Part shown: positions 47,250 to 54,704 of the stretch, in pieces
Layout of the letters: each line of letters opens with the position of its first letter
How positions within the stretch are numbered: position 1 is the stretch's first letter
From: Bacteroidota bacterium
GTDB lineage: Bacteria; Bacteroidota; Ignavibacteria; Ignavibacteriales; Ignavibacteriaceae
Reading direction: 5' to 3'
Assembly: GCA_021813585.1 (NCBI GenBank)
Contig: JAKAJV010000135.1
Location: forward strand, 1-64,000
Length of the DNA stretch: 64,000 nucleotides
Notes under the pieces: model-generated
Databases searched by the model: none
What the model was told of the DNA's origin: nothing
What the model saw: the letters and a program-made list of their open reading frames with translations, nothing else
Program-made: the position numbers and the translations under genes

Positions 47250-47328
47250 CAGTAAGTAGTAGGTAGTAAGTAGAAAGTAGTTATAAAATTAGCAGTCCAA
47301 TTACTACCTACTACTTTCTACTTACTTA
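47250..47328. repeat. GTAGGTA heptamer array facing its complement, copy 2
   Basis: CAGTAAGTAGTAGGTAGTAAG (47250-47280 region) is answered by TTACTACCTACTACTTTCTAC (47301-47328). It abuts the mobile element beginning at 47327 and follows the PorV-like gene, so it might also end its transcript. Confidence 0.7.
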
Positions 47329-47475
47329 ACTCATGTTACGCAAAATTATAAAGCTTGGGTGTCATACCCGCGAAAGCGGGTATCCAGCATTCCAAAATAA
47401 GCAAAAAATGGATTCCCACTTTCGTGGGAATGACAATACAGTACATCAAAATGAATTTCTGCGTAACTTCAGTTA
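47327..47475. mobile_element. 149-bp MITE-like element, family B copy 1
   Basis: Terminal inverted repeats TAACTCATGTTACGCA (47327-47342) and TGCGTAACTTCAGTTA (47460-47475; 14 of 16 match) enclose two hairpins, ATACCCGC-GAAA-GCGGGTAT and ATTCCCAC-TTTC-GTGGGAAT. No coding potential. An inverted 149-bp copy lies at 51916-52064. An ACTT flank occurs on both sides, a possible short target duplication. Confidence 0.8.
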
Positions 47476-47876
47476 CTTAATTTATTTTCAACCGCTTCTA
47501 GTAGAGTATTAAGCAGCACTTTATTTTCTACCGGCTTTGTTAAGAAAACATCCACACCGGCATTTAATGCGTTATCTCTGTCCTTCTTAAATGCATGTGC
47601 AGAAAGGCAAACAATCGGAATATTTTCGTAGCCGGGAATTTTCCTTACTTCCTTTGTAAGTTCCAATCCGTTTTTATTTCCTCTTAAAGAGATATCCATT
47701 AGAATAACATCGAACTTTTTCTTGTTAATATGCTCATAGAATGATTGTTCCGAATCGCATATTTCCACTTCAAAATTCCTTTTTAAGAACATTTCGAGGA
47801 ATTTTTGATTTTCGAAATCATCCTCAGTAACAAGTAATTTTGGTTTGGTTTGTCGTACAGCGTCGGTCATTTTCAT
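47469..47876 (-). CDS. Single-domain response regulator A
   Basis: A 135-residue protein made only of a receiver domain: acidic residues E18-D19-D20, phosphoacceptor D61 in VILMDISLRGN, and Lys in TKPVENK. No output domain, so it probably signals by protein contact or phosphotransfer. It is the last gene of an apparent four-gene operon, 9 bases after the kinase. Its last three codons including the TGA stop lie within the inverted repeat of the mobile element at 47327-47475. Close paralogue of the receiver at 50235-50615. Confidence 0.88.
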   Translation of the reverse strand: MKMTDAVRQTKPKLLVTEDDFENQKFLEMFLKRNFEVEICDSEQSFYEHINKKKFDVILMDISLRGNKNGLELTKEVRKIPGYENIPIVCLSAHAFKKDRDNALNAGVDVFLTKPVENKVLLNTLLEAVENKLSN

Positions 47877-47885
47877 TAACTCCTG

Positions 47886-49157
47886 CTATTCATTAAAGAC
47901 AATTGTAAATTCAGACCCTACGTCCTTTGTGCTTTTCACAAAAATTTGGGCATTGCTTACGTCTGCAAATTTTTTACTTAAAGCCAGCCCCAGTCCGTTT
48001 CCTTCGAAGGGACGGTTGTAACCCATTCTTTCCTGGGTAAAAGGCCGAAAGAGATTACTGACAAACTCTTCAGACATCCCTATGCCAGTATCGGCAATTG
48101 AGACGTAAAGCTTATTATTCTTATTCCTGTTTAGAACTACTTTTACGCTCCCTTTGTTTGTATATTTAACGGCATTATCAATCATGCTGTCGAATATTTG
48201 AACCAGGCCGAATTTATCTGCATAAACATATGCATCGCCTATTTTATTTTCAAACGCAAGCTCTATGTTTTTTAATTTAGCTTCGGGCTTGTATTCGTTT
48301 ATAACATTTACTAAGGCATGTGTTATATTCGTAGTTTCAATTTTGGGCTCGTAGCTTTCGGTTTGGAACTGGGACATGTACAACAGTTGATCGATAGTTC
48401 TTGTAAGCCTCCTACCGCTTTTATCAATTGCATAAAAGGCAAATTCCATATCGTCATCAATCTTGCTGGTTAATTTTTCCTTGATAATCGAATTAAATCC
48501 TAGCACAGCTGTAAGCGGCGATCTAATTTCGTGGGACATTTGTGCAAGAAAATAACTTTTTATTTTCTCAGAGTCCTCAGCTTTTTTTAATGCCTCTTTT
48601 ATTTTTAATTCTGCTTTTTTCAGTTCGGTAATATCGCTGCCGTAAATTTGCCCGATATTCATTTCGGGCAGCCCAATAATGGTAAACTTGTAAGATTTAT
48701 CGTTCAGCTTTGTAACAAAATCAATTTTTTCCCCCTCCCTTATACATGCTGCAAGGTCTATTTTATTTATATCGGGTATTATATTTACTAATTTTTTTTC
48801 TTTGTGTAATCCGTTCTGCAACAGCATCTCGCTGGCTTCGTTGCTCATTACTACCTTACCGGTCTCGTCAAATCTAAACACCGGTTCGGGGTCCATTTCT
48901 GCAAATGCGGCCATAAGCTGAGCGTGCTTTAAGTTCAGATCGTTTTTCTCCCTGTTAAAATGGCTGCGCATTGGCGCAACCACAAACCAGTAAAAAATGA
49001 AAATTAAGGAAAGCACTACAACCAGAAGAAGGAGAGAGTATATAATCGGATTATTTAAACTGAAGAATGAATCTACGGTTATCTGTTTTAAAGAAACAGA
49101 AGAAGAGTCCGATGAGGATTTCGAATATTGTTGTAATAAAAGAATAAGTATGTGCAT
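47886..49157 (-). CDS. Membrane-anchored PAS histidine kinase A (HisKA type)
   Basis: A 423-residue kinase: one membrane span (IIYSLLLLVVVLSLIFIFYWFVV, about 38-60), a coiled linker, a PAS-like domain (about 80-180; FRFDETGKVVMSN), the HisKA dimerisation helix with H209 in QMSHEIRSPL, and a HATPase domain with N-box DNAVKYTN, G1 DTGIGMS and G2 GNGLGLALSKKFA. The ATG at 49157 gives a 107-base overlap with the upstream membrane protein gene; homology to kinase B begins only at SFFSLNNPII, so the true start may lie nearer 49070 at a non-ATG codon. Confidence 0.9.
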   Translation of the reverse strand: MHILILLLQQYSKSSSDSSSVSLKQITVDSFFSLNNPIIYSLLLLVVVLSLIFIFYWFVVAPMRSHFNREKNDLNLKHAQLMAAFAEMDPEPVFRFDETGKVVMSNEASEMLLQNGLHKEKKLVNIIPDINKIDLAACIREGEKIDFVTKLNDKSYKFTIIGLPEMNIGQIYGSDITELKKAELKIKEALKKAEDSEKIKSYFLAQMSHEIRSPLTAVLGFNSIIKEKLTSKIDDDMEFAFYAIDKSGRRLTRTIDQLLYMSQFQTESYEPKIETTNITHALVNVINEYKPEAKLKNIELAFENKIGDAYVYADKFGLVQIFDSMIDNAVKYTNKGSVKVVLNRNKNNKLYVSIADTGIGMSEEFVSNLFRPFTQERMGYNRPFEGNGLGLALSKKFADVSNAQIFVKSTKDVGSEFTIVFNE

Positions 49158-49626
49158 CGGCTAACCCGCTTATTAGGTTTAAATTCTTTGTAACGATCGT
49201 AAATTCATAAAATATTAACAACAATATAAAAATATTGAATAATTTTTTCTTAAAAAAGTCGATCATAAATTCTTTTATAAAGTAGGATAAAATTAAGAAA
49301 TGAATCAAACTAAAGAAAAAGAAGAAATTATTTATCATAAATTTAGAAAAATTCATCAAGCTTAACAAGATGAAAGCTATTGCAATCCAAATTATATACT
49401 TTTTAATAAACGCTTTATTTTGAATAGCCATCAAGGCTAAAAATGAAATCGGTATAAAAAAATAATTCGATGCAGAATAAAATACGAATCTCAAAATCAA
49501 TGTCAATGGATCCATTAGAGCAATAAAAAGGAAATAAAAAAAACTATTCCCCTTAAATTGCCTTATTGGAATAATCAGCCAAATAATAGTTGATAAGATT
49601 ACAAAAAAATAAATTTGAATATTCAT
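49051..49626 (-). CDS. Six-span membrane protein A, partner of kinase A
   Basis: A 191-residue, extremely hydrophobic protein with about six predicted spans. It has no recognised family, but it is clearly paralogous to the protein at 54117-54704: both contain IIWL[IL].PIRQ, a FYYFL-like span followed by Asp, an ILL/ILIFYE[FG]TI[VM]TK segment, FITTIFEI/FITSAFEI and end in F[IL]QF/LK. Its gene overlaps that of the histidine kinase and follows a secreted protein gene after 9 bases, so it is a likely sensing or input subunit of the kinase. Confidence 0.75.
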   Translation of the reverse strand: MNIQIYFFVILSTIIWLIIPIRQFKGNSFFYFLFIALMDPLTLILRFVFYSASNYFFIPISFLALMAIQNKAFIKKYIIWIAIAFILLSLMNFSKFMINNFFFFFSLIHFLILSYFIKEFMIDFFKKKLFNIFILLLIFYEFTIVTKNLNLISGLADAHTYSFITTIFEILIGLFFCFFKTDNRRFILQFK

Positions 49627-50615: not shown

Positions 50616-50821
50616 AATTATTACTCATTTTTAGTGAATGAACAACGCGGCCGCCACTTAAGGTCTTTGCATCCGGCGAGGTAAATTAATTAGGAACCAT
50701 TGGATTGGAGCGCAATCAATGGTTCCCTAATTCGCCCGGCTCCCTGCCCTGAGGATGAAAAAACCTGACGAAATATATATACTGTTTCTTTAAAAAAAAT
50801 CAGTAGTACTACGTATATCAT

Positions 50822-50910
50822 TCTAGTCACTCTTCCTAGAAAAATCTAGTCACTCTTCCTAGTAAATCTAGTCACTCTTCCTAGAAAAACTAGGAATTCT
50901 TCCTAGAAAG
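50822..50910. repeat. Four tandem 22-23-bp CTAG repeats
   Basis: Units starting at 50822, 50845, 50867 and 50889 read TCTAGTCACTCTTCCTAG plus A-rich spacer; the last is diverged and has the near-perfect palindrome CTAGGAA-TTC-TTCCTAG. The CTAG tetramer, usually rare in bacterial DNA, occurs twice per unit. Confidence 0.8.
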
Positions 50911-51089
50911 GCTTTGTATTTATAATAAACAATCATTATTCTGCGATATTCAGCCCAAATACCATAGCGCGGCATGCTGCCGCAATGGAAGATGTTTGAT
51001 GGAAGAGGGAAGACGGGAAACGGAAGATGGAAAACGATTAGAATATCTTGACATAAAAAATATTAAAAATTGATTTTATTTGATGAAAA

Positions 51090-51173
51090 GATGGAGTGCA
51101 TTCACAAAAAGATGAATTGATATCACAAAAAGATGAATTGGTATCAGAAAAAGGTGACTTGGTATTCTTAAAA
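51090..51173. repeat. Four tandem 21-bp repeats
   Basis: Units of GATGAATTGGTATCACAAAAA type start at 51090, 51111, 51132 and 51153. As 21 is a multiple of three, both strands give a 7-residue periodicity: plus-strand DELVSQK units (from GTG 51096 to TAG 51230) and minus-strand SSFCDIN units. Either could be a remnant of a coding sequence. Confidence 0.7.
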
Positions 51174-51227
51174 CTTAATTTGCAATACCGACGGGATAAA
51201 TTGAAATATTTCCTGAGTTCTGACAAT

Positions 51228-51507
51228 TAGCCCAACTTCGACACAATATGGTAAATTTCTATGAAAAATTATAGGAAACAGTTTGAATAGGATATAATAA
51301 CAAATAAATTATTTGTAAAACCTTGTGTAGTGAAAACGGATTGCTCTATAATAATTATTTTTAAAATAAATCCTCGTAGAGGATTAACAAGAGTGGTTGA
51401 AAGAAACTAACACTAAAATAATTGTTGTAGTGAAAACGAGGGGGCAGAAAAATGCGAATCAATCAAGTAATCAAAGTTTTTTCCTTAATTGTGTCGAAGT
51501 TGGGTTA
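51228..51507. mobile_element. 280-bp element with 20-bp terminal inverted repeats
   Basis: TAGCCCAACTTCGACACAAT (51228-51247) and ATTGTGTCGAAGTTGGGTTA (51488-51507) are complementary at 19 of 20 positions. The interior has no open frame, two copies of GTAGTGAAAACG and a hairpin with GTA loop. It appears to be a non-autonomous insertion-sequence derivative; no matching transposase is in the window. Confidence 0.65.
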
Positions 51508-51672
51508 GTGCGGTAGGAGTTTACAAAGCTCCACCAATTCTGTTTGGCGCTCTTTCGTTTAATAATTGAAATATCCCGGCTAAATTAGTATTGATGAGTT
51601 TTTTTTCGGCTTTGAGTTTTTAGTCCTATACAAAATTCAGGACCTTACTTCAAACCTTATTTAATTTCCGAA

Positions 51673-51916
51673 CCTTAGTACACATATTCATAAATACGAT
51701 GACGAATAAAAAAATGATAACCTTATTAAAAATTTATTAACCTTAGTAACATTAGAAAACACCCCTGCTTTCTTTACCTTATTATCTTATTCATAAACAA
51801 GGTAATAAGGTTGGAGTTTTGGGGTAAGCATATGTTACTAAGGTTAGGAAAAAATAAATAAGGTTTTTAAATCTCTTTATAATATGTAACTGTATTTATG
51901 AATTAGAGTACTTAGT
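51673..51916. mobile_element. Family A element copy 2
   Basis: The left end CTTAGTACACATATTCATAAATAC (51674-51697) and the right end GTATTTATGAATTAGAGTAC (51892 on) match the ends of the 294-bp element at 18001-18294, and the left sides remain similar for about 55 bases. The interior differs: it holds CCTTAGTAACA and GTTACTAAGG and an AAGGTAATAAGG hairpin. It is immediately followed by the family B element. Confidence 0.6.
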
Positions 51917-52064
51917 AACTCATGTTACGCAGGAATACATTTTTATGTCTGCATTGTCATTCCCACGAAAGTGGGAATCCATTTTTTATCATATTTTCGC
52001 ATCTTGGATACCCGATTTCGCGGGTATGACACTCAAGCTTTATAATTTTGCGTAACATGAGTTA
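51916..52064. mobile_element. 149-bp MITE-like element, family B copy 2 (inverted)
   Basis: TAACTCATGTTACGCA at 51916-51931 is perfectly complementary to TGCGTAACATGAGTTA at 52049-52064. The interior is the reverse complement of the copy at 47327-47475, with the same two hairpins in the opposite order and only scattered differences. Length is the same, 149 bases. Confidence 0.82.
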
Positions 52065-52338
52065 GTAACATAAGATTATCCCGGTCCTGAGGGATAACCT
52101 TATAACCTAATTAATGTTACTAAGGTCGAATCATTAGACAAGGTTTTTCTGTCTAGCTTATCATCTAAATGGCAATCAATAGTGCGGTAAAAATCGGGCA
52201 ATAAAAACTACTCGCCTTTAAATCAATGTCTTACAAATTCGCTCCTCTCACCTTTAGATGAGCGTCAGAACTCATGAAATATTTGAAGGCAACTGTTAAA
52301 ACAGAAAACAAATATTTATATTCATTACTAGCAATGGG

Positions 52339-52992
52339 TTACTTCAGATTATTTTCAAAAGCGTAGCGGGCAAGCGCTGCAGTAGTTTTTATGTTTAACT
52401 TCTGCATTAGGTTGGTTTTAAAAGTATCTACAGTACGTGGACTTATTTGGAGCTTTTCGGCAATTTCCTGGTTGGAATAACCGTTAGCAATTAATCCGAG
52501 TACCTGTTTTTCCCTTTTGGTAAGAATTATGGTATCTTTTTCTGGTAATTGTTTGCTCTCTTCCAGCTTCTGCAATAAATTTTCTATTAACACCTGCGTT
52601 AGGCTGTTTCCGAAATATTTTTTACCGGCTGCTACCGACTTGATAGCTTTAATCAATTCTTCCTTGCTTACATTCTTATGTATTACACCGGAGGCGCCTT
52701 TTTTTAAAGAGCTTAGCAGGTATTCTTCGTTCTCGTACATTGTTAAAATTAATATGTTTATGGATTCGTGCTTTTGCTTTATCAATTCGGTAGCAAGTAT
52801 GCCGGAAATGGTAGGCATCGATATATCCATTAATATTACATCCGGTAACAATTCATCCGCTTTTTTAATGGCAACAGTTCCATCCTCGGCTTCGCCGATA
52901 ATTTCTATATCGGGAAGCTCATTTAACAGGCTCTTAATCCCGGTTCTTACCAGCAAGTGATCATCAGCTATTAATACACGAATCTTATTCAA
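52339..52992 (-). CDS. LuxR/NarL-family response regulator B
   Basis: A 217-residue regulator: receiver (D10-D11, phosphoacceptor D56 in VILMDISMP) and a C-terminal LuxR helix-turn-helix (about 150-215; LTKREKQVLGLIANGYSNQEIAEKLQIS and VDTFKTNLMQKL). It overlaps the kinase gene by 8 bases, so the pair is a standard two-component system of the NarL/DegU type. It differs from module A, where the regulator has no output domain. Confidence 0.93.
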   Translation of the reverse strand: MNKIRVLIADDHLLVRTGIKSLLNELPDIEIIGEAEDGTVAIKKADELLPDVILMDISMPTISGILATELIKQKHESINILILTMYENEEYLLSSLKKGASGVIHKNVSKEELIKAIKSVAAGKKYFGNSLTQVLIENLLQKLEESKQLPEKDTIILTKREKQVLGLIANGYSNQEIAEKLQISPRTVDTFKTNLMQKLNIKTTAALARYAFENNLK

Positions 52993-54151
52993 GTTTACTC
53001 TCCAGAGGTATATCTACTATTATTTCTGTTCCGGCGCCTTCGTTGGAGTCTATAATGCACTTCCCGTTCAGCGAAAATGCTCTTTCATACATATTTGTAA
53101 GACCGATGCTGTTTTTAGGATATGTATCGCTTTTCAATTTCTCAAAATTAAAGCCTATGCCGTCATCCTCTATAAGCAGTCTTAAAAAATGTGGATACTT
53201 AATTAATTGCAGGCTAAACTCTTTTGCCCTTGAATGCTTAACAATATTGTTTAGCGCTTCCTGGGAAATCCTATATATTACTGTCTCAATCTCCGGTGAA
53301 AATCTTTCGTTCAGTTTATGAGCCTGGAATATTCCTTTAATGTTGCTTTTTCTGGATATATCGTTACACAAAGCTTTAAGCGACGGCTCCAGACCAAAAT
53401 CATCTAGTATTCTCGGCTTAAGTCTATACGAAATTTCTTTTATCTCGGACATGGCGTATTCAATAAGGTCCGAAATATCTTTTATTTTTTCCAGCCTGCT
53501 TCCTGTTTCGGCTTTGTCTTCTTTTAGCAGCTCAAGGTTCAGTCTTATCGAAGTTAAAATTTGACCGATGCTATCGTGCAGTTCCCTGGAAATTTTTTGT
53601 TTCTCCTCCTCCTGGAGCTTCTGCATTCTGTTAGAAAGCTCTCTTAATTTTTTTTGAAACAGTTTCAGCTCGTCCTCAACCTGTTTACGGCGTGTAATAT
53701 TGCTGCAGTATATTTGTCCGAAATTCATTTCGGGGATGCCCTTAATTATCACGTCATAATATTCATTATTTATCTTGGTAGAAAAATGATCCGATTTACC
53801 TGCTGCAATACTGTTCTTAAAATCGAAGGCGGCGAGTGACGGGAATATTGAAGATGCATTCATATTTTGATGATAAAGATTTTCAAAGAGCCTGGTACCC
53901 TCCTTATTCGAAAGAATAATTTTCCCGTTCTCATCAAATCTAAAAAGGGGATCGGGATCCAGATCTGCAAACAAAGCCATTAATCTAGCGTTCTTTAACT
54001 CTAAATTCTCTTTTTCCTTTATATGCTTTTTGCTCTGCGGTATAATTACATGCACGTAAAAGATATAAATTACACCTAGCAGAGCAAGGCAAAATAATAT
54101 TGTAAATATTATCGGGTTACTTAAGCTGAAAAATAAGTTTTGAGCTGCCAT
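52985..54151 (-). CDS. Membrane-anchored PAS histidine kinase B (HisKA_3 type)
   Basis: A 388-residue kinase whose N-terminal half is paralogous to kinase A: FFSLSNPIIFTIL (membrane span near 10-32), the PAS-like domain beginning MALFADLDPDPLFRFDENGKIILSN, and EMNFGQIYCSNIT. After it comes a HisKA_3 domain with H192 in RELHDSIGQIL and a HATPase domain (EALNNIVKHSRA; DDGIGFNFE; GLTNMYERAFSLNG). Its ATG overlaps the upstream membrane protein gene by 35 bases and its stop overlaps regulator B by 8. Confidence 0.93.
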   Translation of the reverse strand: MAAQNLFFSLSNPIIFTILFCLALLGVIYIFYVHVIIPQSKKHIKEKENLELKNARLMALFADLDPDPLFRFDENGKIILSNKEGTRLFENLYHQNMNASSIFPSLAAFDFKNSIAAGKSDHFSTKINNEYYDVIIKGIPEMNFGQIYCSNITRRKQVEDELKLFQKKLRELSNRMQKLQEEEKQKISRELHDSIGQILTSIRLNLELLKEDKAETGSRLEKIKDISDLIEYAMSEIKEISYRLKPRILDDFGLEPSLKALCNDISRKSNIKGIFQAHKLNERFSPEIETVIYRISQEALNNIVKHSRAKEFSLQLIKYPHFLRLLIEDDGIGFNFEKLKSDTYPKNSIGLTNMYERAFSLNGKCIIDSNEGAGTEIIVDIPLESKLE

Positions 54152-54704
54152 ATTTAAATAAAATAAAAATAACGGCTATAGATATTTCAAAGGCGCTGGT
54201 TATAAAAAAATAATAAGTTCCATTAAATAACGCTAAGGTAATATAAGAGCTAAACTTTGTCATTATAGTTCCCTCGTAAAAAATAAGGATAAACAAAAAA
54301 AAGTCTAGCTTTCCATTATTTGATAATTCCATTATAAATGTTTTAAGGAATACCAGCATTATGCCAAGATGAAGGACTATAATAATAACAAACCGGATAT
54401 AATTTCCGCTGTTCCAGAAAAGTAAAGCAAGTGGAATTACCGCGGAAACCCAAATTAGTAAATAAATCCCTTTAATATACTTTCTGTCAATTATGGAAAC
54501 TAAACATCCTATTGCTAAAAAAAAGAAAACAATCAAATTATTGTCATGGTCAACAAATCGAACATACAAAGAGGCAATAATATCTCCGAAAGCAATTATT
54601 AAAAAATAATAGAAAAATTTTGTACGGTACTGTCGAATTGGTGGAAGCAGCCAGATGATTATGCTGCTGTATATTATCCACGGGTTAGGTTTAAACATTT
54701 TCAC
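54117..54704 (-). CDS. Six-span membrane protein B, partner of kinase B
   Basis: A 195-residue hydrophobic protein with about six spans, paralogous to the protein at 49051-49626 (IIWLLPPIRQYR, FYYFLIIAFGD, ILIFYEGTIMTK, FITSAFEISIAVIFILFK, LIFQLK). No known domain recognised. Its coding end overlaps the kinase start by 35 bases, the same arrangement as in module A. Conservation of both sequence and overlap argues for a functional complex with the kinase. Confidence 0.78.
   Translation of the reverse strand: MKMFKPNPWIIYSSIIIWLLPPIRQYRTKFFYYFLIIAFGDIIASLYVRFVDHDNNLIVFFFLAIGCLVSIIDRKYIKGIYLLIWVSAVIPLALLFWNSGNYIRFVIIIVLHLGIMLVFLKTFIMELSNNGKLDFFLFILIFYEGTIMTKFSSYITLALFNGTYYFFITSAFEISIAVIFILFKYGSSKLIFQLK

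Follow-up and report, generated by a model that had tools for sequence, protein, structure and literature searches.

The window, that is, the whole stretch of 64,000 nucleotides analysed here, contains two inverted copies of a non-autonomous MITE family, the ends of which are probably used in trans by the transposase of an IS701-like IS of about 1.1 kb. According to the model that we favor, the 13-bp ends of the gene-less MITE would be recognised in trans by an IS701-like DDE transposase, insertion into AT-rich intergenic TTAWTAA sites would give rise to target duplications of 7-8 bp, and an inverted pair of CGTC-1-type REP units, apparently captured between the ends, would have spread as a passenger. 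The original prediction had described the two copies as MITE-like, and this label holds; it is sharpened here by the ends, the 7-8 bp target duplication, a probable mover and the copy number.

Both copies lie where they had been predicted and in the predicted opposite orientations. They had been described as units of 149 bp with 16-bp TIRs and, while the element is indeed present in two copies, a comparison of the flanks places its true ends at CTCATGTTACGCA...TGCGTAACATGAG, hence a length of 143 bp with 13-bp TIRs. The outer TAA/TTA of the 149-bp unit is part of the target duplications and is located outside the element. Copy 1 (positions 47330-47472, plus strand), as delimited by flank comparison and copy alignment, has the left TIR CTCATGTTACGCA (47330-47342) and the right TIR TGCGTAACTTCAG (47460-47472), and is flanked on both sides by the 8-bp target duplication TTACTTAA (47322-47329 and 47473-47480, plus strand). 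Copy 2 (51919-52061, minus strand), also 143 bp, belongs to the young subfamily and is flanked by a 7-bp target duplication that reads TTACTAA on the minus strand (51912-51918 and 52062-52068). The TIRs had been thought to be shared by the two copies; the ends of copy 2 are identical, both being CTCATGTTACGCA, but the right end of copy 1 differs and matches the TIR of a resident IS, CTGAAGTTACGCA. A gapped alignment of the copies gave about 90% identity. Copy 2 shows 98-99% identity to many copies elsewhere in its own genome, and copy 1 is a member of a divergent subfamily that is probably older. Both are short, lack a transposase ORF and have terminal inverted repeats, as expected of a MITE.

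A genome-wide search, as suggested along with the original prediction, identified the TIR 164 times in the host genome with at most one mismatch, compared to three times for the reversed control. A whole-element search gave at least 40 matches, counting those scored among 135 candidates. At least 47 distinct complete copies were identified, all of which are intergenic according to ORF calling, although in two cases there is an overlap with a short ORF (91 and 96 codons), which is possibly not a gene. The TIR-bearing contig ends inspected are cut copies of the MITE, and the total, with the contig-end copies included and allowing for one cut copy being counted on two contigs, is roughly 80-100 copies. 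Since many contigs of the assembly terminate within MITE copies, the family explains part of the assembly fragmentation. Perfect target duplications were found, with the ends fixed, in 38 of the 47 complete copies compared (7 bp in 34, 8 bp in four), as is typical of a MITE family with many copies, while the control comparison of left flanks with the right flanks of other copies gave a duplication match of 9.5%. The consensus of the 7-bp duplication is TTAWTAA, with a G+C content of 3%. In the nine copies without a perfect duplication, several are one base off, and few are fully unmatched in their flanks (L420 is the clearest case), for which reason exchange between copies looks rare. The copies that are exactly 143 bp long are, with two exceptions, 97.9-100% identical to the consensus, and because of this near-identity the expansion of the family looks recent.

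Full-length copies of the candidate partner IS were identified in relatives of the host. Two of these are from the same genus, L351 with 1074 bp, an ORF of 338 amino acids and TAAATAA duplicated on both sides, and L353 with 1175 bp and an ORF of 368 amino acids; a third from the same family, L348, measures 1181 bp with an ORF of 358 amino acids. All three have the same kind of ends as the MITE, and L351 is the only one of them with a perfect 7-bp duplication at fixed ends. The three proteins are DDE transposases that match PF01609/PF13546 and contain an intact Y(2)R(3)E(6)K (YREK) motif. L348 (338.5 bits) and L353 (328.8 bits) score above the cut-off of 250 bits for the NCBIfam model of the IS701 family, NF049921, whereas L351, the closest to the resident IS, scores below it with 185.9 bits. 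The YREK motif is also present in related elements on plasmids in Cyanobacterium, Piscirickettsia and Thiothrix, the ends of which are CTGATGTTACGCA or CTCACCTTACGCA; for example, the IS on the Piscirickettsia plasmid combines the TIR CTCACCTTACGCA with a 7-bp duplication, TTCATAA.

A profile built from the L351, L353 and L348 transposases was searched against the host genome and detected the C-terminal part of an L351-like IS at the ends of three contigs (C139, C34 and C59), where CTGAAGTTACGCA comes after the 3' end of the IS and the flank differs in each of the three cases. A 5' end with 97% identity to L351 is located at the end of another contig (C82). The end fragments and their several flanks suggest that the host genome contains several copies of this IS, the interior of which is unassembled. 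An IS701-like IS is thus very likely resident in this genome, where it is known from end fragments only, and with these CTGAAGTTACGCA-bearing fragments the genome of the MITE also contains a partner IS whose ends match. This IS is probably the actual mover of the MITE, and it probably is or was recently active. A PF01609 search of the host genome gave no match, as explained by the IS being present there as end fragments only. The first 30 PF01609 loci of the relatives had no such TIRs, and the partner IS was found among the remaining loci. There was no match to PF14706 (Tn5 type) in 41 genomes, no sequence match in a search of the PDB, and no transposase among the clustered ORFs adjoining TIRs. 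In one genome, a single ORF beside a TIR joins an InsA zinc ribbon to a Mutator-type transposase domain (L163, positions 328-1476 in G256); it was considered as a mover and rejected, as the pairing did not recur.

No more than about 13-17 bp of the ends are common to the MITE and the IS, and the MITE is hence no simple deletion product of the IS. Most young copies have CTCATG where the resident IS fragments have CTGAAG, with 11 of the 13 bases identical, and the end of the resident IS is matched exactly only by the right end of copy 1 and by both ends of L002. The same 13-bp ends and duplications are found on many otherwise unrelated mini-elements across other Bacteroidota. Within the host's class, elements with CTSAWGTTACGCA ends are present in further genera, families and orders, and a scan of a genome collection extends their range to the Chitinophagaceae and other Bacteroidota, with single record matches in a cyanobacterium and a gammaproteobacterium. 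The scan of the collection with CTGATGTTACGCAAAAT revealed many more MITEs and no autonomous element. Among the 115 distinct elements verified by their duplications overall, the duplication is 7 bp in 105 and 8 bp in ten. In one genome from the same genus (G001, e.g. L105), a MITE family of its own, 122 bp long and with some 45-50 copies, has CTGAAGTTACGCA ends and lacks the REP hairpins. No MITEs of Ignavibacteria turned up in a search of the literature.

The two internal hairpins that had been predicted in each copy are present and can be typed as inverted CGTC-1-type REP units. Each window copy contains two such units of 27 nt, with the CCA tails facing inward and the tags outward. In copy 1, unit A (47360-47386, plus strand) consists of a TGTC tag, an 8-bp stem ATACCCGC/GCGGGTAT, a GAAA loop and a CCA tail, and unit B (47409-47435, minus strand) is inverted relative to A and has the stem ATTCCCAC/GTGGGAAT. 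In copy 2, the unit pattern places unit B at 51955-51981 (plus strand) and unit A, with one stem mismatch, at 52005-52031 (minus strand). The CGTC-1 REPs, a class that includes the Neisseria dRS3, are characterised by their tag, stem, loop and tail (PMC3733652), and both hairpins agree with them in all four features: a CGTC/TGTC tag, an 8-bp stem starting with AT, a 4-base loop and a CCA tail. The hairpin unit occurs 207 times in the host genome, and among the matches listed the units are mostly paired at the MITE spacing, which suggests that they are transposon cargo here, unlike the CGTC-1 REPs elsewhere. Lone matches to the REP unit were seen in other genomes, and one of them (G051, C1:205724-212790) contains a cluster of such matches without MITE ends. 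A GC-rich hairpin was found in 13 of the 78 verified elements counted outside the host genome (0.4% in mononucleotide shuffles) and a CGTC unit in five of the 78 (0%), where the five may overlap with the 13 and where one of the 78, L396, belongs to the host genome, so that the outside count of CGTC units is four of the five listed. The presence of REP hairpins as passengers in an IS701-like MITE is the one unusual feature of a solid MITE family.

The REP units could also be taken to indicate a REP/RAYT system, in which a Y1 tyrosine transposase moves the hairpins as single strands and the outer repeats are incidental. The TGTC tag, the 8-bp stem starting with AT, the 4-base loop and the CCA tail of the internal units speak for such a system. 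However, the mobile unit is bounded by TIRs and gives rise to duplications of 7-8 bp, which is what a DDE transposase would produce, and most elements with the same TIRs outside the host genome lack such a REP, yet have the duplications. Moreover, CGTC REPs were reported to lack a dedicated transposase (PMC3733652), and we consider this explanation very unlikely. We give just as little credence to the view that the element is not mobile, but a selected regulatory or structural RNA element that serves as a terminator or mRNA stabiliser. Both window copies have a strong fold (z of -8.4 and -6.7 relative to shuffled sequences), and the 47 intergenic copies are located between co-directional (34) or convergent (nine) genes, with only three between divergent genes. 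However, no match was obtained in Rfam, and the duplications, near-identical copies and species-specific families indicate transposition. A secondary role of the MITE as a terminator is possible.

The original prediction had further proposed that the 4.4-kb segment with the kinase genes could be inverted by recombination between the two copies, which would make them an invertible switch. The copies are inverted, about 90% identical and bracket about 4.4 kb, which makes this reading tempting, but it can be checked by the simple evidence of matched duplications and synteny, and found no support there. Each copy has retained its own matched duplication, TTACTTAA on both sides of copy 1 and TTACTAA on both sides of copy 2, which argues against an odd number of inversions, as this would have placed TTACTTAA and TTACTAA on each copy. 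In ten relatives with an ortholog of the porin-like gene (46192), the available downstream genes are oriented opposite to it, just as they are in the window, and in one of them (G012) the entire set from the porin to the thioredoxin-like gene is colinear with the window. The gap between the porin and receiver genes contains no MITE in seven relatives, and the relatives without the MITE have the same gene order and orientation. Furthermore, a divergent pair would be a poor substrate for recombination, given the many near-identical copies elsewhere. An invertible switch is thus extremely improbable, although a sub-population may have the inverted arrangement, and there is no sign in the sequence that the window copies flip the intervening genes.

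A local effect was seen for copy 1, which is inserted at the 3' end of a receiver-domain gene (47469-47876, minus strand). The last residues of this gene are encoded by the target duplication, and its predicted stop codon, TGA (47469-47471, minus strand), is supplied by the right TIR of copy 1. A gene-switching role of the two copies is not indicated. The surroundings contain other repeats. A perfect 16-bp inverted repeat, AGTAAGTAGAAAGTAG, is located directly to the left of copy 1 (47265-47280 and 47311-47326) and extends with its right arm into the target duplication. The intergenic stretch at 50616-52338 is unusually long, compared to about 0.3 kb for the corresponding region in two relatives. 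It contains short tandem repeats of the type CTAGTCACTCTTCCTAGAAAAAT (50820-50910) and other, dispersed repeats, for example one with 94% identity to a part of contig C16 close to another MITE (51362-51508) and one with 83% identity to a stretch on contig C83 (51525-51680). There are also two related neighbouring sets of sensor-kinase genes (47469-49626 and 52339-54704), and in both a small membrane-protein gene overlaps the start of the kinase gene.

Taken together, the MITE links three separately described things, namely the small TTACGCA-ended elements found throughout the Bacteroidota, the IS701-like YREK group of IS and the CGTC REPs. The latter, a class without a known mover, are here tied to an IS701-like group with 7-8 bp duplications. 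A more speculative idea, which we regard as rather unlikely, is that CGTC REPs are in general carried by IS701-like transposases, with REP dimers being captured between TTACGCA-type ends and spread as MITEs. CGTC REPs have been reported to lack a transposase of their own, and REP dimers to be located in some cases within palindromes (PMC3733652); if true, the idea would account for both.

MITEAba12, which is attributed to ISAba12, likewise has only its TIRs and duplication length in common with the co-resident IS, and it differs from the window MITE in its IS, its 9-bp duplications and its TIRs, with no mention of REPs in the part of the source consulted (PMC6382973). The ISPepr1 subgroup of the IS4 family has AT-rich targets with duplications of 7-8 bp, ends that begin with 5'-CT and the YREK motif (PMC2266710), all of which are shared by the partner IS. 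However, the partner IS is shorter, 1.07-1.18 kb (1074-1181 bp) compared to 1.5-1.6 kb (1500-1600 bp), it deviates from the end consensus YT-AA-YTT---A by an A at position 9, and its proteins are placed nearest to IS701 by NCBIfam. Within the IS701 family, members of the ISAba11 group were found by the L348 and L351 transposases at about 26-27% identity and, similar to the partner IS, are about 1.1 kb long with a single DDE ORF and TTACGCA within the TIR. The ISAba11-like relatives examined in Acinetobacter have the TIR TAGGACTTACGCA and an HHEK-type motif, while the partner group has CTSAWGTTACGCA ends and YREK. Their duplications are about 5 bp (5 bp in L470 and six T in L467), as opposed to 7-8 bp in the partner group. 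Judged by these features, the partner IS group is close to ISAba11, yet distinct from it.
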